DNA of 64,000 nucleotides from Fundidesulfovibrio magnetotacticus (GTDB lineage: Bacteria > Desulfobacterota > Desulfovibrionia > Desulfovibrionales > Desulfovibrionaceae): assembly GCF_013019105.1 (NCBI RefSeq), contig NZ_BLTE01000002.1, positions 186,001 to 250,000 on the forward strand. Direction: 5' to 3'. The stretch's first letter is position 1. Each line of letters opens with the position of its first letter. Below the pieces are notes generated by a model. The model was given only the letters and a program-made list of their open reading frames with translations. It did not search any database and was not told the DNA's origin. This document shows, in pieces, positions 19,491-33,718 of this stretch. The translations under genes and the position numbers were made by a program.

Positions 19491-20184
<694 letters not shown>

Positions 20185-20192
<8 letters not shown>

Positions 20193-20958
20193 CGTCGGAC
20201 TCCCCCAGGTAGGCCTCGATCACGGCCGGGTCGGCCTGCACGGCGTCGGGCGCGCCCACCGCGATGAGCTCCCCGAAGTTGAGCACCGCCACCGACCGGC
20301 ACAGCCCCATCACCATGGGCACGTTGTGCTCGATGAAGAGCACCGTGAGCCCGAAGCGGTCGCGGATGTCCAGGATGAAGCGGGAGAGGTCCTGCTTTTC
20401 GGAAGGGTTCAGCCCGGCGGCGGGCTCGTCCAGGAGCAAAAGCTTGGGCGAGAGGGCCAGGGCGCGGGCGATCTCCAGGCGGCGGCGCTCCCCGTAGGAG
20501 AGGCTGCCCGCCTGGGCGTCCATGCGCCCGGCGAGGCCCGCGTACGCCACCAGCTCGCGGGCGCGCTCAAGGGCCCTGGCCTCGTGGGCGCGTGAGCCGC
20601 GCGAGCCGAAGAGGCCGCCCCAGAAGGAGGCGTCGGACGTGGCGTGCAGGGGCACGCGCACGTTGTCGAGCACCGAAAGCCCCGCGAAGAGCCGGATGTT
20701 CTGGAAGGTGCGCGCCATGCCCAGGCGCGCCACCTGGGCCGGGTCGGCCCCGGTGATGTCCCGGCCCTGGAAGCGCACGGTCCCGGCGCTGGGCCTGGTG
20801 AGCCCGGTGAGCATGTTGAAGAGGGTGGTCTTGCCCGCCCCGTTGGGGCCGATCAGCCCGAAAATCTCACCCTCCTGCACGGTGAAGCCCACGCCCATCA
20901 CGGCCATGAGTCCGCCGAAGCTCTTGGAGAGCCCCTGCACTTCCAACACGGCGCTCAT
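20185..20958 (-). CDS. livG: Branched-chain amino acid ABC transporter ATPase LivG
   Basis: A 257-residue ABC ATPase. Walker A is GPNGAGKTT, the signature is LSYGERRRLEIARAL, Walker B is LLLDEPAAGLNP and the switch region is VLFIEHNVPMVMG. The longer insert between Walker A and the signature (GLFGSRGSRAHEARALERA) and the LSYGERR signature are typical of LivG rather than LivF. The ATG overlaps the livM stop by four bases. It works with LivF on the cytoplasmic face of the LivH-LivM permease. Confidence 0.95.
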
Positions 20959-21827
20959 TTGTCCCTCCCGGACAGAAGGCCCGCGATGCCCCGGGGCATG
21001 TAGACGCAGGCCAGCACGAGCACCACGCCGTTCAGGATCATGCGCGAATCCTTCAGGGGCCGCAGGATCTCCGGCAGGCTCACCAGCAGGGCCGCCCCCA
21101 GGAGCGCCCCCCACTTGGAGCGCGAGCCGCCGATGAGCACATAGGCCAGGCAGGCCACGGCGGCGTCGAAGGTGCCCTGGCGCACGTTCCAGGTGTTCAG
21201 GAAGGGCGCGCTCATGGCTCCGGTGACGCCCGCCAAGGCGCACCCGGTGACGAAGGCCTGCACCTTGCGGAAGGTCACGTCCACGCCCATGGCCCGGGCG
21301 GCCAGCTCGTCCTCGCGGATGGAGAAGAAGAGCCTGCCCGCGCCGGAGCGCTCCAGGCGGTGGATGAGCGCCAGCGTGAGCAGAAGCAGCGGCCCGAAGA
21401 ACCAGATGTAGGCCAGGCGCGACTCGAACGGCTGCGGGATGCCGAAGATGCCCACGGCCCCGCCCGTGACGGGCATGTTCAGGGCCGCCACGCCCACCAC
21501 CTGCACGAAGGCGATGGTGGCCAGGGCCAGGTAGATGCCGCGCAGGCGCAGGGCCGGATAGCCCAGGGCCACGCCCAGCGCCACCGAGAGCGCCAGGGCC
21601 GCCAGCCACTGCACGGGGTAGATCATGAAGCCCAGGGCGTCGCGCAGGGGGGCCAGCGCCGGGTGCGTGCCCATGACGGCGGCCACGTAGCCGCCCAGGG
21701 CGTAGAAGCCGATGCTGGCCAGGGAGAGCTGCCCGGCCATGAGCGGGAAATAGAGCGAAAGCCCCAGGAGGGCCTGCTGCACCACCGCGACGAAGAGAAA
21801 GCCGTAACGCGCGACGAATTCTTCCAT
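20955..21827 (-). CDS. livM: Branched-chain amino acid ABC transporter permease LivM
   Basis: A 290-residue integral membrane protein with about eight hydrophobic segments. The conserved LivM elements are present: ALGVALGYPALRLRGIYLALATIAF near the middle (read as a run of helices) and ARAMGVDVTFRKVQAFVTG, which contains the EAA-like loop that contacts the ATPases. ASIGFYALGGYVAAV near the N-terminus is also typical. It overlaps livG by four bases and follows livH by three. It forms the channel with LivH. Confidence 0.94.
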   Translation of the reverse strand: MEEFVARYGFLFVAVVQQALLGLSLYFPLMAGQLSLASIGFYALGGYVAAVMGTHPALAPLRDALGFMIYPVQWLAALALSVALGVALGYPALRLRGIYLALATIAFVQVVGVAALNMPVTGGAVGIFGIPQPFESRLAYIWFFGPLLLLTLALIHRLERSGAGRLFFSIREDELAARAMGVDVTFRKVQAFVTGCALAGVTGAMSAPFLNTWNVRQGTFDAAVACLAYVLIGGSRSKWGALLGAALLVSLPEILRPLKDSRMILNGVVLVLACVYMPRGIAGLLSGRDK

Positions 21828-21830
21828 GGC

Positions 21831-22781
<951 letters not shown>

Positions 22782-22833
22782 GATTGTGGGCCGGATGTGC
22801 TAGGAGGTTTCGCCTCTCCCGCCGGAGCGGGAA

Positions 22834-22861
22834 GGGGCCGGGCGAAGCGTCGCCCGGCCCC
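22834..22861 (-). terminator. Stem-loop between livK and livH
   Basis: A perfect 11-bp stem (GGGGCCGGGCG and its complement) with a six-base loop starts a few bases after the livK stop. A second 6-bp stem (TCCCGC/GCGGGA) follows in the direction of transcription at 22817-22832. There is no long T-run, so partial termination or mRNA stabilisation of the livK message is more likely than a full stop. Confidence 0.6.
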
Positions 22862-22869
22862 GGAGCGGA

Positions 22870-24042
<1,173 letters not shown>

Positions 24043-24080
24043 GCGGTCCTCCAAACGGTTGATGTTCTCGGAAACACCGG

Positions 24081-24110
24081 AGAATCCACCCGTTTGACGC
24101 ATTTTGTCAA
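24081..24110 (-). promoter_or_regulatory. Candidate sigma-70 promoter of livKHMGF
   Basis: On the minus strand a perfect TTGACA (24110-24105) is followed by an 18-bp spacer and GATTCT (24086-24081, three of six matches to the -10 consensus). It lies about 40 bases upstream of the livK ATG and faces it. Confidence 0.6.
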
Positions 24111-24150
24111 GCCGAATCCCGTTGGTCCGCCGCGCGGAACGTTCTGCCCG

Positions 24151-24188
24151 CGAAACGAAAGGGCCGCGCGGCGTTCGCCGCGCGGCCC
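24151..24188 (-). terminator. Terminator at the end of the nhc operon
   Basis: A perfect 12-bp stem (GGGCCGCGCGGC and its complement, 24161-24188) with a GTTC loop is followed on the minus strand by TTTCGTTTCG. It lies 26 bases after the nhcD stop. Confidence 0.8.
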
Positions 24189-24213
24189 AAGGTTGCAGCC
24201 CGGGGGCCGGGTT

Positions 24214-24354
24214 CTAGTGGTGGTTCTTTTCCTTGGGCTCCTTGCCCGTGAGGAACTTCCACCAGCCCACGGCGCAGGCCAGGGCGACGGCCATCAGGAT
24301 GTAGGCGGCCGCTTTGGCGAAGACCATCTGGTCGTGATAGACGTGGAATTCCAT
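24214..24354 (-). CDS. nhcD: Small membrane protein NhcD (HmcD-like)
   Basis: A 46-residue protein with one membrane helix (AAAYILMAVALACAVGWWKFL, quoted in part, residues about 15-34) and a charged tail ending KEKNHH. In the Hmc and nine-heme cytochrome operons of Desulfovibrio a membrane protein of about 47 residues (HmcD, NhcD) follows the NrfD-like subunit in the same position. Identification rests on size, topology and gene order, since so short a sequence has few conserved residues. It starts ten bases after the nhcC stop and is followed by a terminator, closing the operon. Confidence 0.72.
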   Translation of the reverse strand: MEFHVYHDQMVFAKAAAYILMAVALACAVGWWKFLTGKEPKEKNHH

Positions 24355-24364
24355 GGAGATGCTC

Positions 24365-25606
24365 CTAGTGGTGGTCCTTGTAGGCCGGGTGGTCCGAGAA
24401 GATGGCCATGTACTTCGAGATGAAGCGGAAGCACAGGATGATCAGGGTGACCACGAACACCGACACGATGATCTCCTGCACCGAGGGGAAGTACCGCTGG
24501 TCGGGAGTCAGGTTGATGTTGAAGGCGAACCAGGACACGTTGAAGCGGTTGAACACGATGCCCAGCACCGAGATGGTGGCGGCAGCCTTGATGGTGCCGG
24601 TGTTCTTCGAGCGGTAGCCCACGGCGTAGAGGAAGCAGGGCAGCGCGACGAAGCCCAGCATCTCGGCCCACCACATGAGGGCGAACTTGCCGTCGAGCAG
24701 GTAGGCCCACTTGTGTTCCCCGGCAATGGGGACCCACTTCATGAAGAAGTAGCCGAAGAGCACGATGGAGCACGCCTTGGCGAACATGAACATGACGCCG
24801 TCATGGTCGTTGTTGTACTCGGAGCTCATGCGGCTGTGCATGTAGTGGTGCGAGATGGTGCCCTCGAAGATGACCATGGACATGCCCGCGACCATCGAAG
24901 AGATGAAGAACTGCAGGGGCAGGTGCGGGGTGTACCACAGGGGGTGCATCTTGGTGGGCGCGATCAGATAGAGCATGCCCAGCGAGGACTGGTGCATGGT
25001 GGAGAGCACGATGCCCATGATGGTCAGGGCGATGGTGGCCTTGTGGATGATGTGGCTGATTTTCTGCCAGCCCACCCAGTCGGTGAAGTTGGGCAGCCAC
25101 TCGATGGCCAGCACCGTGACGTAGAGCATGACGCACAGGCCCACTTCGAAGAGGACCGAGCTGGTGCCCTGGGAGACGAACACGGGATAGGGCAGCTTCC
25201 AGGGCTGGCCCACGTCGTAGAGCAGCGCGTAGACGACGAAGGCATAGCCGAGAAACGCCGTGAGGATGGCGGGTTTCACCGCCGTGCGGAAGCCCTTGAT
25301 GTTGAAGATCAGGGCGGCGCAGGTGGTGGTGTAGCCGCCGGCGGCCAGCGCGACGCCGCAGAGCAGGTCGAAGCTGATCCAGATGCCCCAGGGGTTGTTG
25401 TTGTCGAGGTTGGTCGTCTTGGCCAGGCCGCCGATGAAGAAGCGGTTGATGGTGACGAACACGCCCACCACGAAGATGGCCGAAAGGATGGGGTGCTCCT
25501 TGGCGAACTTCAGGTAGGTGACGGGGTTCATGAGACTCTTGATGACGTCCCAGGCCCCGCTCGGCGGCAGAATGACCGGCTCAGCGCCGTGACCGTGATG
25601 GCTCAT
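24365..25606 (-). CDS. nhcC: NrfD-like integral membrane subunit NhcC
   Basis: A 413-residue polytopic membrane protein of the NrfD/PsrC/HmcC family with about ten hydrophobic segments. Family-typical parts include PVTYLKFAKEHPILSAIFVVG near the N-terminus (shown in part), GIWISFDLLCGVALAAGGYTT, and HHYMHSRMSSEYNND. Proteins of this family bind menaquinone and carry electrons between the quinone pool and a periplasmic Fe-S partner. It starts twelve bases after the nhcB stop. It probably anchors NhcB and passes electrons to or from the nine-heme cytochrome NhcA. Confidence 0.87.
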   Translation of the reverse strand: MSHHGHGAEPVILPPSGAWDVIKSLMNPVTYLKFAKEHPILSAIFVVGVFVTINRFFIGGLAKTTNLDNNNPWGIWISFDLLCGVALAAGGYTTTCAALIFNIKGFRTAVKPAILTAFLGYAFVVYALLYDVGQPWKLPYPVFVSQGTSSVLFEVGLCVMLYVTVLAIEWLPNFTDWVGWQKISHIIHKATIALTIMGIVLSTMHQSSLGMLYLIAPTKMHPLWYTPHLPLQFFISSMVAGMSMVIFEGTISHHYMHSRMSSEYNNDHDGVMFMFAKACSIVLFGYFFMKWVPIAGEHKWAYLLDGKFALMWWAEMLGFVALPCFLYAVGYRSKNTGTIKAAATISVLGIVFNRFNVSWFAFNINLTPDQRYFPSVQEIIVSVFVVTLIILCFRFISKYMAIFSDHPAYKDHH

Positions 25607-25618
25607 GGTCGGTCTCCT

Positions 25619-26584
25619 TTACTTTTTGGCCCGTTCGGCGGCGAGGGCCTCGGCCACGGCTTGTTGTTTCTCGTCCTCGGCGCGCTTGTCCTTCCACTTG
25701 GTGATCTGCCAGATGCCGCCCAGCAGGACGGGCCAGAGGCAGGCCACCAGGGGCACGAGGCCCAGGGCGCCGGAGGTCAGCTCGGGAGCGGGGGTGTTGC
25801 CCACGTTCTCGGGCAGGCCGATCTGGGTGAAGGGCACGCTGGAGATGTAGAGCCAGTTGGTGCCGCCCATCTCGCGTTCGCCGTAGACGTGGGGGATGTA
25901 GCGCCCGGGCACCTGGCCGATGCGGGCCCAGGCTTCCTTGATGAGGTCTTCGCGCTTGCCCCACACCAGGGCTTCCATGGGGCAGGAGCTCACGCAGGCC
26001 GGGAGCTTGGCCTTGCCCGCCTTGATGTGCGGATGGCACATGTGGCACTTCTGCACGTAGGGGATGAGCTTGTCGTACTCGTAGGCGGGCACGTTCCACG
26101 GGCAGGCCACCATGCAGTAGCGGCAGCCCACGCACACGGAGCCGTCGTAGACCACCGCGCCTTCGGGGGTCTTGGTGAAGGCCTTGACGAAGCAGGCCGA
26201 GGCGCAGGCCGGCTCCTTGCAGTGGAAGCACTGGGCTTTCTTGTAGACCGGGGTTTTGCCGCCCGCGGCAGCCGGCATGTACTTGTTCACCAGGGTGTAC
26301 ATGGTGGCGTCGGTGCGGGCCTTGTCGTTCATGCCCTTGGTGTCCTCGAAGGACTTGGGGTCCTTCTTGGGCAGGGTGGTCCAGGGCTTGGTGACGTTTT
26401 CGGAGTTGATCTGGTTGCAGCCCAGTTCGCACTGGCGGCAGCCGATGCAGCGGCTCGCGTCGAAGAGCACGCCGTAGGAGTTGGGATAGCCGTTGAAGGA
26501 GTGCCCGCCTGCCGCGTTGGCCTGTCCGGTCAGGGCAGTGGCCGTGGCCGCGCCGGCGAGTCCCAGGAAGTGTCTGCGATTCAT
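25619..26584 (-). CDS. nhcB: Tat-exported four-cluster ferredoxin subunit NhcB (HmcB-like)
   Basis: A 321-residue periplasmic iron-sulfur protein. It starts with a twin-arginine signal ([19 protein letters not shown], cut near the Ala-Asn-Ala-Ala), so it is exported folded. Four cysteine sets for [4Fe-4S] clusters are visible: [37 protein letters not shown], and CHMCHPH with [12 protein letters not shown]-terminal membrane helix ([19 protein letters not shown]) would anchor it beside NhcC. The layout matches HmcB and DsrO-type subunits. It begins ten bases after nhcA, which also supports the Nhc assignment. Confidence 0.88.
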
Positions 26585-26594
26585 GGGTACCTCG

Positions 26595-27443
26595 TTATTT
26601 CTTGGGCGCGTGACATCCCTTGCAGTCCGTGGCGGCGACGGGCTCCACGCCCATGGCCTTGTGACACTGGATGCACTGGATGTGGTAGGCGGCCATCAGG
26701 CCGGGACGTTTGGGCTCGTCGGCCGAATTGGCCTTGCCGTGACAGGTGCCGCACTTGGGGGGAACCATGTCGGCCGGGGTGTTGTGGTGGCAGCCCTGGC
26801 AGAGGGTTCCGGCCTCGGAGTGGAAGGCCTTGGCCAGGTCGCCCTTGGCGGCGGCCTTCAGGTAGTCCACATGGGCGGAGTGGTTGAAGGACACGGGCAT
26901 GTACTTCTTGGAGATGGAGCCGATGTCCACGGTGTCGGGCTGGGCCAGCTTGGCGGGCTGGGCGGCCGGGGCCTTGGGGTCCTTGTGGCAGGTCGCGCAG
27001 GAGGCGTCCTTGGGGCCGGGCGCGATGCCCTGGTGGCATCCGGCGCAGTTGGCCTTCTTGGTGGCCTGGAAGTGGCAGCCCACGCAGGAGAACTTGGAGG
27101 TGGCGGAGTGCATGGCCTGGGAAAGCTGGACGTTGCCGCCGTCCGGGGAGCCCTGGCTGGTGTGGCACGTGGAGCAGGCTTCCTGCGAGCCCGTGTGGTG
27201 GCAGGAATCGCAGTTGGAAACCGCGGCCTCGTGCTTTTGATGGTTGAACACCGCCTTGGACAGGGGACCCTGTCCGGGCTTCCCGCCGATGGCGGTTCCG
27301 CTCATGACGATCTGGGGCGATTGCGCCTTGGCCTGCCTGCCCTCGCCCACTTCCAGCCCGGCCAAAAGGGCCGCTGCCAGCGTAAGCGTCAGGGCCAGGA
27401 GACAGACTCTGCCCCAGCGTGACCTGGAAACACGTTTCACCAT
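26595..27443 (-). CDS. nhcA: Nine-heme cytochrome c NhcA
   Basis: A 282-residue exported multiheme cytochrome. A Sec signal peptide covers about residues 1-40 (hydrophobic core [16 protein letters not shown]). The mature part has exactly nine CXXCH heme sites: CDSCH, CSTCH, CVGCH, CAGCH, CATCH, CQGCH, CGTCH, CIQCH and CKGCH. Size and heme number match the nine-heme cytochrome of Desulfovibrio desulfuricans, a periplasmic electron carrier that takes electrons from type I cytochrome c3. The ATG at 27443 has AAGGA nine bases upstream; an in-frame GTG six bases earlier is less likely. It is the first gene of nhcABCD and has a long, partly AT-rich upstream region. Confidence 0.92.
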
Positions 27444-27691
27444 ACGCACCCGTCCTTGCCTCTAGGGTTGAACGCCTGAACCCGCGCCATCCGGGACCCC
27501 ACCCCCCAGGCAACGCGGCGCTGCTGTAAACAGCTGGCCAGAAAACGATTTCCCAGTGGAACTAGAACACATGCAAGAGCTTCGTCAAGAAGTTCGTGAA
27601 AGTTGGGACAATGCCGCCAGCCCGCTCCCTCCCTGGCTTCCCGGCCCCTGCCCCTGCGGAGGGCCCGCAAAACCGGACACTTTTGGAGCAG

Positions 27692-27697
27692 ATAATA
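27692..27697 (-). promoter_or_regulatory. Candidate -10 element of the nhcABCD promoter
   Basis: TATTAT on the minus strand lies in the most AT-rich part of the gap. There is no good TTGACA at 16-18 bp upstream. The quasi-palindrome at 27717-27730 covers that position instead, which fits an activator-dependent or repressed promoter. Confidence 0.4.
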
Positions 27698-27716
27698 CGT
27701 TCGACCACAACATATT

Positions 27717-27730
27717 CATACCATATTGGT
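27717..27730 (-). promoter_or_regulatory. Quasi-palindrome shared with the tmc upstream region (nhc copy)
   Basis: On the minus strand the sequence reads ACCAATATGGTATG, with TACCA-ATA-TGGTA as a 5-bp inverted repeat. Thirteen of 14 positions match the copy at 31121-31134. A further TGGT half-site occurs 16 bases downstream, before the candidate -10 element. It is a plausible regulator binding site. Confidence 0.5.
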
Positions 27731-27951
27731 AGTATTGAGCCATGCTCCACAGCGCCCCACCATCAAGGCAAACATGCATTCTTCCAGAGGGTTGCATGCT
27801 CGGACGATTGTCCTTGGCTCTCCAAGAGCCCCACGGGATCTGCCCGCAAGCGTTTCAGCCTTCGCCTTCACGACGTCACGGCCAATGCGTCAACCCCATG
27901 GCCAGGAAGACACTTTCTCGATCCGGCCCCGCGCAAAGGCCAGCTTCAGCG

Positions 27952-27969
27952 GAATGGGCGCGCCCATTC
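27952..27969. repeat. Perfect 18-bp palindrome
   Basis: GAATGGGCGCGCCCATTC is identical on both strands. It lies in the non-coding gap between tmcA and nhcA, about 510 bases upstream of nhcA. It could bind a dimeric regulator or form a hairpin; no second copy was noticed. Confidence 0.55.
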
Positions 27970-28168
27970 GCCGCACGCAGCACCCGGGGTTGAAGCACTC
28001 CAAGGCATCCCTGGCGGGTGATCGCCAAGACGCCGCCATGCCTTGCAACCTTTGGTATTCTGCCGTCTGACAGGCTTGCCACCCGACCAGACTCCGCCCA
28101 AGAGGTCGGGCCTGCCTGCTGCGGATGCACGTCCGGCTTCACCGCGCAACCGTCCCTCCGAATACGGA

Positions 28169-28201
28169 CGTGCGCTTGTTCCACTCTGGAACAAGCGCAC
28201 G
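28169..28201. repeat. Perfect 15-bp inverted repeat with 3-base loop, downstream of tmcA
   Basis: The arms CGTGCGCTTGTTCCA and TGGAACAAGCGCACG flank CTC. It directly follows the tmcA terminator hairpin in the direction of tmc transcription. No T-run follows on either strand. It may be a backup terminator, an RNA processing site or a protein binding site. Confidence 0.7.
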
Positions 28202-28248
28202 AAAAGGCCCCGGCTTCCGGTGTCTCAAGTTTCTCCGGAAGCCGGGGC
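28202..28248 (-). terminator. Terminator of the tmcCBA operon
   Basis: A perfect 14-bp stem (GCCCCGGCTTCCGG and its complement) with a 14-base loop is followed on the minus strand by CTTTTCG. It begins 37 bases after the tmcA stop. Confidence 0.85.
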
Positions 28249-28284
28249 GGCGGGGATGGGGACTTCCCGGCCAAATGCGTCGGT

Positions 28285-28692
28285 CTACTTCACTTCATGG
28301 CACCCGGCGCAGGAGCGCGGTCCGTAACTGAGCTTCTTGTCGGCGGGCATCTTCTCGTGACAGCCCCAGCACTGCTTGTGGTAGGCCTGCTGGAGGCCGA
28401 TGGAGCTGGTGGGCTTGGCTCCCGCGTGGCAGGAGGCGCAGGCCGTCTCGTCGCCCTCGGTCCAGAGGTTCTTTCCGGGCTGCTTGGGGTCGTACTTGTG
28501 GTGGCAGTCGGTGCACTTGAGGCCGTAGCCGGTGTGCTTGTCGTGGTTGTAGACCACCACGCCGCGTTCCTTGGCCTTGTAGGCCTTGGCGTTGTTGATC
28601 TTCATGCCGTCGCTCTGGGCCAGGGCGGCCAGGGAGAAGGCGCAGGTCAGGAGAGCCGCGAAGAGCGCGGTGAGCAGTTGGGAGCGGCGCAT
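28285..28692 (-). CDS. tmcA: Type II tetraheme cytochrome c3, TmcA
   Basis: A 135-residue periplasmic cytochrome. The Sec signal peptide ends near ALAQ (residues about 1-26). Four CXXCH sites are present: CTDCH, CASCH, CWGCH and CAGCH, with HDKHTGYGLKC supplying distal histidines as in cytochromes c3. Four hemes rather than three rule out DsrJ. The type II cytochrome c3 of Desulfovibrio receives electrons from periplasmic hydrogenase through type I c3 and hands them to the Tmc membrane complex. Its ATG shares one base with the tmcB stop, so translation is coupled. In the known operon tmcA comes first; here it is the last gene. Confidence 0.85.
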   Translation of the reverse strand: MRRSQLLTALFAALLTCAFSLAALAQSDGMKINNAKAYKAKERGVVVYNHDKHTGYGLKCTDCHHKYDPKQPGKNLWTEGDETACASCHAGAKPTSSIGLQQAYHKQCWGCHEKMPADKKLSYGPRSCAGCHEVK

Positions 28693-29990
28693 TATTCAGC
28701 TTCCTCCTCGTCTCCGGGTTGCATGTGCGGCGGCAGATCCATGAGTTCGCAGATGAGTTCCTTGAAGCTCATGACCTTGATGCCCAGATCGTATTCCTTG
28801 TTGAGGTCGTTGATCTGGTCGGTGCAGTTGTGGCAGGGCACCAGCACGTACTTGCAGCCGGTCTTCTTGATCTGTTCGGCCTTCACCTTGCCCGCCACCA
28901 TGCGGATCTTCTTGTAGTCGGCGCCCATGGGGATGAAGCCGCCGCCGCCGCAGCAGCAGTGGCTCCACTCGGCGTCGGGCTGCATGGGCACGTAGTTGTC
29001 GCAGAGCATCTCCATGAGGCCGTCGCCGTACGCGCCCAGGTCGCCGGAGCGCGAGAGGTTGCACGGGTGCTGGTAGGTCATGGGTTCTTTGAACTTGTGC
29101 TTGAGCTTGATGCGGCCTTCTTTCAGGTAGTCGTGGAAGAGCTTCACGGCGTGGGTGACTTCCACGGGGGCCTGTCCATTGGGCTGCTTGGTCCAGTAGG
29201 GGCCTTCGTACTTGGCGGCGCGGTAGGCGTGGCCGCACTCGGTGATGCAGATCTTCTTGGCGCGCAGCTTCTGGGCGGCGTCGTAGAGGGTCTGGGTCAC
29301 CTGCCCGGCCACCTTGAGGTTGCCCGAGAACATGGAGAGGTTGGTGGCTTCCCAGCCGTGGGAGGGCATGGTCCAGTTCTCGCCGGCGGCGTGCATGACC
29401 ATGGCCGCTTCCTGGATGTCCTGGGGGTAGTACTTGGGCTCGCGGGAGTTCACCACGAACATGATGTTCGCGTCTTCCTTGTCGATGGGGATTTCCAGGT
29501 CCTTGAGGCGGTCCTGTCCTTCCTCGGCCATCCACTCGCAGGTCTCGACGAATTCCTCGTCGGGGATCGACATCTGGTTGCCGAACTCCACGTAGGACTG
29601 GTCGATGGTCATGAGCCTGTCGGGGCACACGTTCTGGGTGCGCATGCACTGGCGGGCGATGTTGATCATCAGGGCGATCTCGATGCCGAAGGGGCAGTAC
29701 TGGGAGCAGCGGCGGCACATGGTGCAGCGGCCCCAGGCCACTTCCTTCATCTCCTGGAGCTGCTCGCGGGAGACGTTGCCCTTCTTCTTGATCAGCTCGC
29801 CCAGGGTGACCCTGGCCTTGTACTGGGGCATGAACTCGGGCTTGTTGTCGTTGGCCAGGTAGAAGAAGCAGGACTCGGAGCACAGGCCGCAGGACATGCA
29901 GGTCTTGAGCCAGGCGCGCAGGCGAGCGGTGTCGTTGCGCTCGATGACCGCCATGATCTCTTCGGCGTTGACGGGCTTTTGATCGGACAT
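28692..29990 (-). CDS. tmcB: TmcB, cytoplasmic Fe-S/CCG-domain subunit (HmcF/DsrK-like)
   Basis: A 432-residue protein of the HdrD/DsrK/HmcF type. Two [4Fe-4S] motifs lie in the first third (CMSCGLCSESC near residue 36, CTMCRRCSQYCPFG near 90). The C-terminal half has CCG-type cysteine clusters: HPCNLSRSGD, then WSHCCCGGGGF and VLVPCHNCTDQ, which in relatives bind a special cluster for thiol-disulfide or similar chemistry. There is no membrane segment, so it should sit on the cytoplasmic face beside TmcC. At 432 residues it matches TmcB/HmcF rather than the longer DsrK. It starts ten bases after the tmcC stop. Confidence 0.87.
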   Translation of the reverse strand: MSDQKPVNAEEIMAVIERNDTARLRAWLKTCMSCGLCSESCFFYLANDNKPEFMPQYKARVTLGELIKKKGNVSREQLQEMKEVAWGRCTMCRRCSQYCPFGIEIALMINIARQCMRTQNVCPDRLMTIDQSYVEFGNQMSIPDEEFVETCEWMAEEGQDRLKDLEIPIDKEDANIMFVVNSREPKYYPQDIQEAAMVMHAAGENWTMPSHGWEATNLSMFSGNLKVAGQVTQTLYDAAQKLRAKKICITECGHAYRAAKYEGPYWTKQPNGQAPVEVTHAVKLFHDYLKEGRIKLKHKFKEPMTYQHPCNLSRSGDLGAYGDGLMEMLCDNYVPMQPDAEWSHCCCGGGGFIPMGADYKKIRMVAGKVKAEQIKKTGCKYVLVPCHNCTDQINDLNKEYDLGIKVMSFKELICELMDLPPHMQPGDEEEAE

Positions 29991-30000
29991 ATGGCGTCTC

Positions 30001-30651
30001 CTACCAGGTCTTGGTGCCGCGGCGGGCGAATTCGCTGCCGATGAAGGCGCGCGTCAGGAAGAACAGGAACGCGTGGGCCAGCTTGGTGAAGGGCAGCAGG
30101 ATGAGCATCATGCAGCCGAAGAGCACATGCAGGAAGAGCATCTGGTCCGGGGGCAGCAGCATCTTGTGGTAGGCAAGAAAGCCCGTCAGGAACGGCAGGA
30201 AGGTGACGCACCAGACGAAGTAGTCCTTGGGCTCGGTGACGATCTTCACGTGGGGCAGCACGAAGCGGCGGCCCAGCATGAACAGGGCCGAGGCCAGGAA
30301 GAGCAGGGTGAGCACGTCGGTGAGGCCGTCGGGCAGGCTCGGCCAGTGGATGCCCCGGTTGAACTCGAAGGTGACGGCGTGGCCCAGCGCGAAGAGCGGG
30401 GTGAGGATAAGGCAGACGTGGAACACGAAGAAGCCCAGGGCCGTGGCCGGGCTTTCGCGCAGGGGGCGCGACCCCAGGGGCATGAGCCAAGCCCACACGG
30501 AGGCGCGGGCCGCTCCGGGGTTGTAGTGGTCGTAGAAGACCTTGTCCGTGCGCTTGGACATTTTGTAGAGGCTCATGACCTGCCACAAGCTGCCCACGAC
30601 GAACACGGCGAAGGCAATCCATACCAATGGACCGTTCACGAATGCGTACAT
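30001..30651 (-). CDS. tmcC: TmcC, NarI-like cytochrome b membrane subunit (HmcE-like)
   Basis: A 216-residue membrane protein with about five hydrophobic segments (VWIAFAVFVVGSLWQVM, ALGFFVFHVCLILTPLFALG, LTLLFLASALFML, FVWCVTFLPFLTGFLA, MLFLHVLFGCMMLILLPF). Histidines in segments two, four and five (FHV, AYHK, LHV) are placed to ligate b hemes, as in NarI, DsrM and HmcE. It would link the quinone pool or TmcA to TmcB. DsrM is notably longer. I chose the ATG at 30651, which has AAGGAG six bases upstream. It is the first gene of tmcCBA. No tmcD-like gene is visible next to it. Confidence 0.83.
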   Translation of the reverse strand: MYAFVNGPLVWIAFAVFVVGSLWQVMSLYKMSKRTDKVFYDHYNPGAARASVWAWLMPLGSRPLRESPATALGFFVFHVCLILTPLFALGHAVTFEFNRGIHWPSLPDGLTDVLTLLFLASALFMLGRRFVLPHVKIVTEPKDYFVWCVTFLPFLTGFLAYHKMLLPPDQMLFLHVLFGCMMLILLPFTKLAHAFLFFLTRAFIGSEFARRGTKTW

Positions 30652-30744
30652 GGCGTCTCCTTTCAAAAGTGATGGGCCTACGTCGCCTTGCCGGACGCCA
30701 GGGCGACCGGCCGCCAACTGCTTTCCGCCCCTGCCCGGGACGGA

Positions 30745-30762
30745 TTGTGCACGAATTCACAT
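30745..30762. promoter_or_regulatory. CRP/FNR-like palindrome upstream of tmcC
   Basis: TTGTGC-ACGAAT-TCACAT resembles the TGTGA-N6-TCACA sites of CRP/FNR-family regulators; in Desulfovibrio, HcpR is reported to use such sites. It is centred about 100 bases upstream of the tmcC ATG. Each half-site has one or two mismatches, so this is a candidate only. Confidence 0.4.
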
Positions 30763-31120
30763 GGAGTGGATGATGGGGCGCGCGCTGACGTGCCCGCCCG
30801 GCCGCCCTGGAGCCTCCCGGCTCCGCGCGTCCGGCGGGTCGTACGCCGCGTTGCGGCAAGCGGACCGCTACGAAAGCGGACCGGTGTCCCCCCACCCCCT
30901 CCCGTCTGTCGCGTGCAGGCCCTCACTGCCCTGTGCGTCGCCAGCCGGGGACCCCGGCCCCGAAGCTTCCTGCCCTGGCGCATTGGCTGCGCCGTTGAGG
31001 GAGGGCAAGATACTTTGGAACTCAGGTATATGCCGCCTACGCTTCCGGGAACACTCTGTCAAGCCGCCGTTTTCCTACCTTCCGAGGAGGTGTATTGCAG
31101 AGTGCACCAATTCCTTTCTG

Positions 31121-31134
31121 ACCAATTTGGTATG
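31121..31134. promoter_or_regulatory. Quasi-palindrome shared with the nhc upstream region (tmc copy)
   Basis: ACCAATTTGGTATG on the plus strand matches the nhc copy (27717-27730) at 13 of 14 bases. ACCAA-T-TTGGT is a perfect 5-bp inverted repeat. On the minus strand (tmc direction) the next TGGT half-site is 15 bases downstream, and CAATAC, a possible weak -10, begins 23 bases after the core. Confidence 0.5.
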
Positions 31135-31345
31135 GTAATGCGGTCAGGCCGCCCCGCTACCTACGCTCAAACGACAGGAACAGGAGGGTGCGGCGGATGG
31201 TTTGCACGGACCGTGAAACGCTGGGGACCAAACAGGCCGGAGGGCCTTTCAGGCGGGATGGCCCGCGGCCCTGCCGAATACGGTCGGTGGGGAAACGACG
31301 CGGGCCGGACGCGGCTACGCCCCGGGAGAGGGCGAACCCGCCGAC

Positions 31346-31381
31346 CCGGCGGCCCACCGCACTGGAGGGGTGGGCCGCCGG
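31346..31381 (-). terminator. Stem-loop downstream of the Rrf2 gene
   Basis: A perfect 13-bp stem (CCGGCGGCCCACC and its complement) with a ten-base loop lies 25 bases after the stop. No T-run follows, so termination may depend on Rho or be incomplete, in which case transcription could read on toward tmcC. Confidence 0.6.
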
Positions 31382-31406
31382 AAGAGATGCTGTAGGTGAG
31401 GGGCGA

Positions 31407-31841
31407 TCACTCGCAACAGGGCGTTGCGTCCTCGGGGGTGCTGGCCTTGAGCAGTTCTTCGAGGGTCATGGAATCGAGGCGTTCCAGCAGGGCCTTGCTC
31501 ACCTCCTGCCAGAGGCGGCTGGTGACGCAGGTCTTCAGGCGCGGGCAGCTGGTGCGCTCGGTCCAGCAGGTGACGAGGTTCAGGTCGCCCTCCAGGGCGC
31601 GCACGATCTCGCCCATGGAGATGGACGAGGGCGGCTTGGCCAGCAGATGCCCGCCCTTGGAGCCGCGCATGCTGCGGATAAGGCCGGCCTTCTTGAGAAT
31701 GCGCGACAGTTTTTCCAAATATTTCACGGAAATTCCCTGGCGATGAGCGATTTCGCTCACGCGCACGGGGCCGTTGCCTCCGTTCTGGGCCAGATCGAGC
31801 AGCATGCGCGTTCCGTAACGGCTGCGGGTGGTCAGCTTCAT
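31407..31841 (-). CDS. Rrf2-family transcriptional regulator
   Basis: A 144-residue winged helix-turn-helix regulator. The N-terminus MKLTTRSRYGTRMLLDLAQN and the recognition region ISVKYLEKLSRILKKAGL are diagnostic of the Rrf2 family (IscR, NsrR, RsrR). Three cysteines in the dimer region (CWTERTSCPRLKTC; spacing C-x6-C-x5-C) match the Fe-S ligand pattern of IscR/NsrR-type members, so it may sense cluster status, oxygen or nitric oxide. The founding Rrf2 gene was described beside the hmc redox operon of Desulfovibrio vulgaris, and here the gene lies upstream of tmcCBA on the same strand. It also diverges from mdcA. The ATG at 31841 is at the conserved start. Confidence 0.88.
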   Translation of the reverse strand: MKLTTRSRYGTRMLLDLAQNGGNGPVRVSEIAHRQGISVKYLEKLSRILKKAGLIRSMRGSKGGHLLAKPPSSISMGEIVRALEGDLNLVTCWTERTSCPRLKTCVTSRLWQEVSKALLERLDSMTLEELLKASTPEDATPCCE

Positions 31842-32071: not shown

Positions 32072-33718
32072 ATGGTCACCGACGCCCGGTTCAGCACTCG
32101 CATGCGGGCGCGCGCCCGCAAACTGGAGGCCGCGTCCGGCGTCGCCCGGGGACAGTTCGTCCCCCCAGGCGACGTGGTGCGCCTTCTGGAGGCGGTGATC
32201 GCCCCGGGAGACCGGGTCTGCATCGAGGGCGACAACCAGAAGCAGGCCGACTTCCTGGCCCAGTGCCTGGCCCGGGTGAACCCCGACCGGGTGAACGGCC
32301 TGCGCATGACCCAATCCTCGGTGATCCTCCCGGAGCACCTGGACGTCTTCGAGCGCGGCATCGCCGCCACCCTCGACTTCGCCTACGCCGGGCCCCAGGG
32401 GGAACGCCTCTTCCGCATGGTGGACGAGAAACGCCTGACCATCGGCGCCATCCACACCTATGTGGAGCTCTACGCCCGTTCCTACACCGACCTCTGCCCC
32501 GACGTGTGCCTGCTCGCCGCCGCCCAGGCCGACAGGGCCGGGAACGTCTACACCGGCTTCAGCACCGAGGAGACCCCGGCCCTCATCGAGGCCACGGCGT
32601 TCAAGGACGGGGTGTCCGTGGTGCAGGTCAACGAGGTGGTGGACAAGCTCCCCCGGGTGGACATCCCTTCGGACTGGGTGGACTTCATCGTGGAGAGCCC
32701 CAGGCCCTTCTACATCGAGCCGCTCTTCACCAAGGACCCCGCGCGCATCAGCGACGTGCAGGTGCTCATGGGCATGATGGCCATGAAGGCCATCTACGCC
32801 CGGTATCTGCCCCGGACCATCAACCACGGCGTGGGGTTCAACACGGCCGCCATCGAACTGCTCCTGCCCACCTACGGCCAGGAGCTGGGGCTCAAGGGCA
32901 GGGCCTGCCGCTTCTGGGCGCTCAACCCGCACCCCACCATGATCCCGGCCATCGAGGAGGGCTTCGCGGAGATCGTCTACCCCGTGGGCGGCGAGGTGGG
33001 CATGGAGGCCTACGTCAACAACAAGCCCGACATCTTCCCCGTCGGCCCCGGCGGAACCATGCGCTCAAACCGCTTCTTCAGCCAGATGAGCGGCCACTTC
33101 GCGGACATCTTCGTGGGCGCCACCCTTCAGATAGACACCCAGGCCAACAGCTCCACGGTAACGTCGGGGCGTCTGGTGGGCTACGGCGGCGCGCCCAACT
33201 TCGGCTGCGAGTCGCGCGGGCGCAGGCATGCCAGCCCCGCCTGGCTCGCGGCAGGCGCCGAGGGCTACGCAGGGGCCGCCATGCCCCGGGGCAGGAAGCT
33301 CGTGGTTCAGATCGTGGAAACCTTCCGCGGCAGGATGCTGCCCACCTTCGTGGAGCGGCTCGACGCCTGGGACTTCCAGGAAAAGGGCTTCTTTGAGACC
33401 CCTCCGGTGATGATCTACGGCGACGACATCACCCACATCGTCACCGAGGAGGGGGTGGCCAACCTGCTGCTGTGCCGCACGCCCCAGGAGCGCGAGCAGG
33501 CCGTGCGCGGCGTGGCCGGATTCACGCCCGTGGGCCTGGCCCGCGACAAGGCCATGGTGGACCGCCTGCGCGAGCGCAAGGCCGTGCAGTGGGCCTGCGA
33601 CCTGGACATCAAGGAGAGCCGCGCCACCCGCGACATGCTGGCGGCCAGGAGCATCAAGGATCTGGTGGACTGGTCCGGCGGCCTCTACGATCCGCCCAGC
33701 CGCTTCAGGAACTGGTAG
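32072..33718 (+). CDS. mdcA: Malonate decarboxylase alpha subunit (acetyl-S-ACP:malonate ACP transferase)
   Basis: A 548-residue protein matching MdcA in length and sequence (DRVCIEGDNQKQADFLA, TQSSVILPEHLDVF, PRTINHGVGFNTAAIELLLP shown in part, RSNRFFSQMSGHFADIF, KLVVQIVETFRGRMLPTF). MdcA belongs to the CoA-transferase group: it swaps acetyl for malonyl on the acyl carrier protein, the first step of biotin-independent malonate decarboxylation to acetate and CO2. It is the first gene of mdcACDEGBH, all on the same strand with tight spacing. Upstream are 230 bases shared with the divergent Rrf2 gene; no clear mdcA promoter was seen there. Confidence 0.95.
   Translation: MVTDARFSTRMRARARKLEAASGVARGQFVPPGDVVRLLEAVIAPGDRVCIEGDNQKQADFLAQCLARVNPDRVNGLRMTQSSVILPEHLDVFERGIAATLDFAYAGPQGERLFRMVDEKRLTIGAIHTYVELYARSYTDLCPDVCLLAAAQADRAGNVYTGFSTEETPALIEATAFKDGVSVVQVNEVVDKLPRVDIPSDWVDFIVESPRPFYIEPLFTKDPARISDVQVLMGMMAMKAIYARYLPRTINHGVGFNTAAIELLLPTYGQELGLKGRACRFWALNPHPTMIPAIEEGFAEIVYPVGGEVGMEAYVNNKPDIFPVGPGGTMRSNRFFSQMSGHFADIFVGATLQIDTQANSSTVTSGRLVGYGGAPNFGCESRGRRHASPAWLAAGAEGYAGAAMPRGRKLVVQIVETFRGRMLPTFVERLDAWDFQEKGFFETPPVMIYGDDITHIVTEEGVANLLLCRTPQEREQAVRGVAGFTPVGLARDKAMVDRLRERKAVQWACDLDIKESRATRDMLAARSIKDLVDWSGGLYDPPSRFRNW

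Follow-up and report, generated by a model that had tools for sequence, protein, structure and literature searches.

The 64,000-nucleotide stretch analysed here (the window) belongs to the 4.46 Mb genome of Fundidesulfovibrio magnetotacticus (G000). At positions 24214-30651, its minus strand carries seven genes, E, F, c4, c9, B, C and D, which together encode an Hmc-like set of subunits in two adjacent units, E-F-c4 and c9-B-C-D. The QrcD subunit of the menaquinone reductase Qrc was not found in this genus. On balance, with a confidence slightly above even, we read the locus as two linked complexes that share one electron donor. The c9-B-C-D unit would stand in for Qrc as a cytochrome c3:menaquinone reductase, and E-F-c4 would form a conduit into the cytoplasm. 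An earlier note on this DNA had recognised all seven genes and the four and nine heme motifs of the cytochromes c4 and c9, and these were found as described. It had also proposed that a nhc and a tmc operon jointly rebuild Hmc, which is right for the parts; a single complex is unproven. The link between Qrc and the nine-heme cytochrome goes beyond that note and is added here.

The locus is real and conserved, and its arrangement is not due to chance, because the seven genes stand in identical order on one strand, with the two halves adjoining, in each of the five congeners whose locus is intact (G001-G005; loci L041-L045). For this comparison, C was searched in 198 relatives and the 20-kb regions around the matches were compared. 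A sixth member of the genus Fundidesulfovibrio, G006 (66% complete), was omitted from the count, as its contig ends inside C. The locus of F. agrisoli SG106 (L105) carries the same seven genes. Relatives of F in named genomes numbered 570, of which the best 80 were examined for neighbours, and among these c9-B-C-D lies beside E-F-c4 only in L105. The block has remained intact while its flanks changed. The MdcA-like gene upstream was matched in none of the five congener regions, each reaching about 4-5 kb upstream of E, and the LivK-like gene downstream was matched in two of the five congener regions and in the truncated G006.

Eleven other genomes from eight genera (L047-L057) have a standard hmc, that is, a 14-16-heme HmcA followed by B-C-(D)-E-F. 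Each genome of the genus had one HmcC-type match (expectation value E <= 0.001), and F matches at E <= 1e-60 were confined to this locus, plus a true tmc in G000 and G002 only. The survey for hmc that the earlier note had proposed thus returned no separate hmc in the genus at these thresholds, and its claim that the locus supplies a counterpart of each Hmc subunit therefore holds.

Families and borders of the two units

The order of transcription is E, F, c4, an 835-base gap, then c9, B, C and D. Both parts named in the earlier note are present, but in the reverse of the order that it gave, with its tmc part first and its nhc part second. E (30001-30651, 216 amino acids) is a NarI/HmcE/TmcC-like membrane cytochrome b subunit. 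It scored 22.0 bits against Pfam Nitrate_red_gam, marginally below the cut-off of 22.9, and His78, 91, 175 and 193 are kept in 17/17 aligned E proteins, a set that appears suitable for two b hemes. F (28692-29990, 432 amino acids) is a cytoplasmic 4Fe-4S and CCG-domain protein with Pfam CCG and Fer4_8, and its stop overlaps c4 by one base. The c4 gene (28285-28692, 135 amino acids) encodes a tetraheme c3-type cytochrome with four CXXCH motifs (Cytochrom_CIII, 54.1 bits).

Judged by curated models and trees, E-F-c4 is Tmc-like and lies outside the TmcB and HmcF lineages alike. The label tmc is wrong by the same evidence, because the TmcA, TmcB and TmcC cut-offs were missed, TmcD was not found, and the proteins lie outside the TmcB and TmcC clades. 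Against NCBIfam models, F scored 459.8 for HmcF (cut-off 750) and 415.9 for TmcB (cut-off 735), and E scored 218.3 for TmcC (cut-off 240) and 188 for HmcE (cut-off 275). The c4 protein scored 82.6 for TmcA (cut-off 114) and 59.8 for HmcA, matching HmcA positions 176-254.

The F tree comprised 56 rows, in which TmcB (5 rows) and HmcF (20 rows) each formed one clade (100/100) and the F proteins of the genus fell inside neither. Stand-alone modules contributed 18 rows, 15 from among the 50 loci L106-L155 and three from G075 and G037, and a split F was joined in four further rows; the F proteins other than TmcB and HmcF may belong to more than one clade. The nearest relatives of the genus were E-F-c4 modules from G075 (two copies) and G037 (100/100), which stand alone without B or C beside them, and G037 has a complete hmc too. 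The E tree agreed, placing E of the genus outside the hmc and tmc clades. Searches and trees against Hmc, Nhc and Tmc subunits had been suggested in the earlier note. By models, B, C and D are Hmc-family members, and in the trees E and F lie outside both the Tmc and the Hmc clades.

Within the best 80 relatives of F, the 50 loci L106-L155 (several of them short; L106 and L067 are the same locus) carry E-F, with a c4 match in 31, and no B or C beside E-F was found in the DNA examined. A further 29 loci (L156-L184) include 25 with hmc genes upstream of E-F. Many stand-alone modules (L071-L075, L147, L149, L150, L152-L155 and L158) encode F in two neighbouring open frames, and its N-terminal ferredoxin region and its CCG region may therefore be separate proteins.

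The absence of tmcD, reported earlier, was borne out by tblastn with two TmcD proteins (E <= 1e-4), which gave no match in the window, in five loci of the genus or in five stand-alone loci. At the same threshold TmcD was found in 10 of 11 tmc loci (L038, L057 and L198-L205); in the eleventh, L159, the DNA piece ends at just that point. For L198-L205, the tmc assignment comes from TmcD and, in five of these eight loci, also from the E tree; the TmcB model was not its basis. All ten loci with TmcD run D-C-B-A, and the C-B-A order that the earlier note had considered unusual is therefore normal. They include the true tmc of the same genome, located on another contig (G000:C10), in which TmcB (853.6) and TmcA (161.9) exceed their cut-offs and TmcD stands in front. 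Computed isoelectric points were not used as a test for an acidic TmcA; with guessed cut sites, they were 8.9 for c4, 8.7 for the true TmcA of this genome and 5.4 for L198.

Two other identities were considered and rejected. In one, HmcA would be split and c4 would be its N-terminal half; against this, stand-alone modules also pair E-F with c4, and c4 scores higher for TmcA than for HmcA. The other, a DsrMKJOP-like reading of the order M-K-J-O-P, was set aside on model scores (DsrK 166, cut-off 400). A separate dsrMKJOP-looking set, named by its arrangement, is present at G000:C8.

The downstream unit belongs to the Hmc family. B (25619-26584, 321 amino acids) is a ferredoxin-type protein with a twin-arginine start (RRHFLG), a Fer4_11 domain and, as judged by eye, a C-terminal hydrophobic stretch. 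C (24365-25606, 413 amino acids) is an NrfD-like quinone-reactive membrane subunit, and D (24214-24354, 46 amino acids) is a membrane protein. They pass the HmcB (496, cut-off 420), HmcC (608, cut-off 550) and HmcD (69.3, cut-off 34) models, in agreement with the resemblance to HmcABCD claimed before. The c9 gene (26595-27449, 284 amino acids) encodes a nine-CXXCH cytochrome whose hemes align to HmcA hemes 8-16, and Desulfovibrio-type Nhc cytochromes align likewise. The label nhc fits in part: a cytochrome of hemes 8-16 with B-C-D and no E-F downstream is the Nhc-type arrangement, and the Nhc loci compared have no E-F, but c9 misses 9HemeCytC (199.7, cut-off 640), as it does HmcA (236.7, cut-off 400). 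As reference Nhc, L085 was used, where 20/20 residues listed for D. desulfuricans NhcC are in place at offset 0. Its cytochrome passes 9HemeCytC (642.2), and its C also passes HmcC (596.5).

The halves are probably transcribed separately, because a hairpin terminator and a conserved promoter-like block lie between them. The intrinsic-terminator-like hairpin (28207-28248) directly follows c4; its stem has 14 bp and its loop 14 bases, and a U-rich tail comes after it. At this position, 6/6 loci have a G+C-rich hairpin and U-rich run of differing sequence, with RNA fold z from -2.4 to -6.2 (-3.9 in the window); for L042, 6/200 shuffles folded equally well. The promoter-like block TTGACG-16-TCTAGT (27561-27588) precedes c9, and CTTGACGAA and TCTAG occur 5' of c9 at equal distance in 6/6 aligned loci. 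The consensus scanner reported no promoter 5' of c9. Further blocks in the c9 leader (27449-27600, minus strand) are kept in six loci, for example AGAGGCAAGGACGGG immediately before the start, and these are possibly regulatory.

Another intrinsic-terminator-like hairpin after D (24161-24188; a 12-pair stem, all GC, then TTTCGTTTCG) was listed by the pattern scan, which was run on the window only; its loop limit of 8 left the c4 hairpin unlisted. A palindrome, ACCA-N-TGGT, at about 27727 and 31110 (5' of c9 and E) was tried as a shared operator and had no match in the other five loci. Rfam gave 0 matches in 23900-31700. The flanking genes have no relation to the finding. They encode a branched-chain amino acid ABC transporter downstream (19491-24102; binding protein, two permeases and ATPase) and a malonate decarboxylase alpha subunit (MdcA-like) upstream (32072-33718).

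Qrc, the nine-heme form and the quinone site

QrcD was found in 0/7 genomes of the genus, and it exceeded the curated cut-off in 140 of the 198 relatives. Qrc was scored by QrcD alone, and for genomes without an individual listing, absence was read from non-appearance among the matches. At E <= 1e-80, QrcD was present in 93/112 other genomes of the family (a hand count of rows); another count gave 44/59 over the cut-off and 0/7 for the genus. Genomes with an HmcA-type cytochrome read were also compared by heme number, leaving out L094, whose cytochrome is cut by the contig end. QrcD was missing from all 13 nine-heme genomes (6 of the genus and 7 with Nhc) and from three of the 20 with 14-16 hemes (G014, G153 and G184; G153 is 53% complete), giving a Fisher p of 1e-6, uncorrected for kinship. 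In literature searches that covered few subscription papers, no title on Qrc-Nhc exclusion stood among the matches listed, and in a separate search none of the papers listed contained the word Fundidesulfovibrio.

The C subunit retains residues expected of a quinone site and of a proton path. According to the accessible part of PMC13059093, change of QrcD D70, Y110, S138 or Y150 abolished Qrc activity. These residues correspond to D80, Y121, S150 and Y162 of C and are identical in 6/6 genus proteins. QrcD R358 was left out of the comparison owing to a numbering misfit in three QrcD proteins, and at D120 one of these proteins has Glu. All five quinone-site residues that the portion seen of PMC8076601 (Table 2) lists for NhcC are kept in C, and Nhc is listed there as a c3:quinone oxidoreductase.

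In the scheme that we infer, periplasmic hydrogenase and formate dehydrogenase would feed a soluble c3 pool. Periplasmic c4 would draw electrons from this pool, the heme-b subunit E would conduct them through the membrane, and from the CCG protein F they would reach an acceptor in the cytoplasm, for example DsrC. The second unit would be a quinone reductase of the Hmc family that has no E or F of its own. Here, c9 would take electrons from the same c3 pool, B would relay them to C, and C would reduce menaquinone at the periplasmic face with cytoplasmic protons, replacing the missing Qrc. The units would be transcribed apart and, as we propose, kept side by side because one supply, from hydrogen or formate to c3, is split between the quinone pool and the cytoplasm. 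A full-length NiFe hydrogenase is present in 6/7 genus genomes (G006 gave weak partial matches only), and a separate c3 cytochrome is found at G000:C27. The accessible text of PMC4215793 connects hydrogen use with Nhc in D. piger and with Tmc in D. alaskensis.

Several points weigh against this scheme. The Qrc association amounts to at most two independent tree contrasts (sign test p 0.5). The three 14-16-heme HmcA genomes that are also without Qrc indicate that Qrc loss does not require the nine-heme form. The survey of quinone-reducing routes was confined to QrcD among the Qrc subunits, and membrane-bound hydrogenases or formate dehydrogenases are other such routes. Finally, three N-side half-channel residues differ in C in 6/6 genus proteins (Tyr87->Leu99, Arg99->Lys111 and Glu163->Asp176), so proton delivery could differ.

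One complex, two complexes or inherited neighbours

Two functionally linked complexes are favoured over one by the signals between the halves and by the stand-alone relatives of each half; in addition, the hmc next to tmc in L204 and L205 needs no outside E-F. The rival view of one composite Hmc complex, in which E-F replace the lost HmcE and HmcF and free c4 substitutes for part of the lost N-terminal half of HmcA, seems improbable. In its favour are the full Hmc subunit set, the failure to find HmcE/F-type genes at any other site in the genus under the thresholds applied, the adjacency in 5/5 intact loci despite changing flanks, and the match of c4 within HmcA. However, the terminator and promoter-like block separate the halves, the same type of E-F-c4 occurs alone in G075 and G037, the latter also having a complete hmc, and neither E nor F falls within the HmcE or HmcF clade. 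We are equally doubtful of a composite supercomplex, which would have formed when the Fundidesulfovibrio lineage, left with hmcABCD after loss of hmcE, of hmcF and of HmcA hemes 1-7, paired these genes with an E-F-c4 module of another lineage. Such a supercomplex would combine c3-fed, electrogenic menaquinone reduction, in place of Qrc, with delivery of electrons to the cytoplasm.

A stronger contender, although still short of an even chance, is that c9-B-C-D is Nhc, descended from a nine-heme ancestor common with Desulfovibrio NhcABCD, and that E-F-c4 is a coincidental Tmc relative. The heme set (8-16) is the same, and the tree of the c9 region unites the genus and Nhc (94/94), although the grouping seen with B+C is not rejected there either (p 0.094). 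In the B+C tree, by contrast, Nhc is separate from the genus and joins the hmc rows L079, L101 and L103 together with related forms (98/98). The A+B+C tree, made by a quick method, also sets Nhc apart (Shimodaira-Hasegawa-like approximate likelihood ratio, SH-aLRT, 100), and c9 misses the 9HemeCytC model that the reference L085 passes. Approximately unbiased (AU) tests do not reject a grouping of genus and Nhc (p 0.056 for B+C; p 0.19 for A+B+C). A twofold origin of the nine-heme form is favoured by the B+C tree and contradicted by the c9 tree, and the AU tests do not decide.

The B+C tree also contained L086, L095-L098 and L102, which have other cytochromes and stand outside every heme and Qrc count. 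L086 (6197-8722) has an HmcB/HmcC-like pair beside another multiheme cytochrome with 16 motifs in 841 amino acids, and similar pairs lie by other multiheme cytochromes in L095-L098 (six motifs in L096 and L097). These pairs are further variants of the Hmc/Nhc scheme.

The adjacency could also be an inherited neighbourhood of tmc-type and hmc-type units without functional coupling, which we regard as unlikely. In L204 and L205 (family f4), tmc (D-C-B-A) lies about 355 and about 456 bases upstream of a complete hmc in the same orientation, in L057 the two are divergent, and tmc near hmc is described for Desulfococcus multivorans in the accessible part of PMC5109826. Nevertheless, the upstream unit here is of a different lineage, and the block stayed whole while the flanking genes changed. 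Two linked complexes fed by one donor remain our preferred reading.

Comparison with known systems

The accessible portions of PMC6303296 and PMC4215793 still describe as uncertain which way electrons flow through the Hmc-type complexes of sulfate reducers and what these complexes are for. A genus without detected QrcD that keeps the quinone-facing and cytoplasm-facing Hmc halves in two units offers a natural dissection of the role of each half. It is the missing Qrc, a result added here, that makes tests of the locus worthwhile, and the link between the nine-heme form and missing Qrc is a testable rule for genome reading. The misfit of the labels tmc and nhc to these genes, by NCBI's own cut-offs, calls for caution.

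Like HmcABCDEF, the locus has HmcB, HmcC and HmcD by curated models, a c9 equivalent to HmcA hemes 8-16, and E and F homologous to HmcE and HmcF. Unlike it, seven HmcA hemes are missing (9 versus 16), and E-F lie upstream beyond a hairpin terminator rather than downstream in the same operon, miss the HmcE and HmcF cut-offs and fall outside those clades. With Tmc (D-C-B-A), it shares E, F and a tetraheme cytochrome in the order C-B-A and the architecture of a transmembrane conduit. It differs in having no TmcD, in missing the cut-offs and in lying outside the clades, and the genome has a true tmc at another site. Outside the genus, a tmc-hmc supercluster recurs in L204 (2176-11116) and L205 (2060-10999).

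The divergent second set tmcA2B2C2 of Desulfococcus multivorans, reported at 27-35% to D. vulgaris in the part of PMC5109826 available, is possibly a published form of the stand-alone E-F-c4 modules, compared here by description only. That same part mentions no c9-B-C-D neighbour, unlike the situation in Fundidesulfovibrio. NhcABCD of Desulfovibrio is alike in its nine hemes, B-C-D, lack of E/F downstream and host without detected QrcD; it differs in that c9 here misses 9HemeCytC, the B+C tree sets the two apart (not decisively) and E-F-c4 lies upstream. With QrcABCD, the unit would share its proposed role, from c3 to menaquinone, and C keeps the four QrcD residues needed for activity, although the gene set is different and C scores 92.7 against the QrcD model (cut-off 570).

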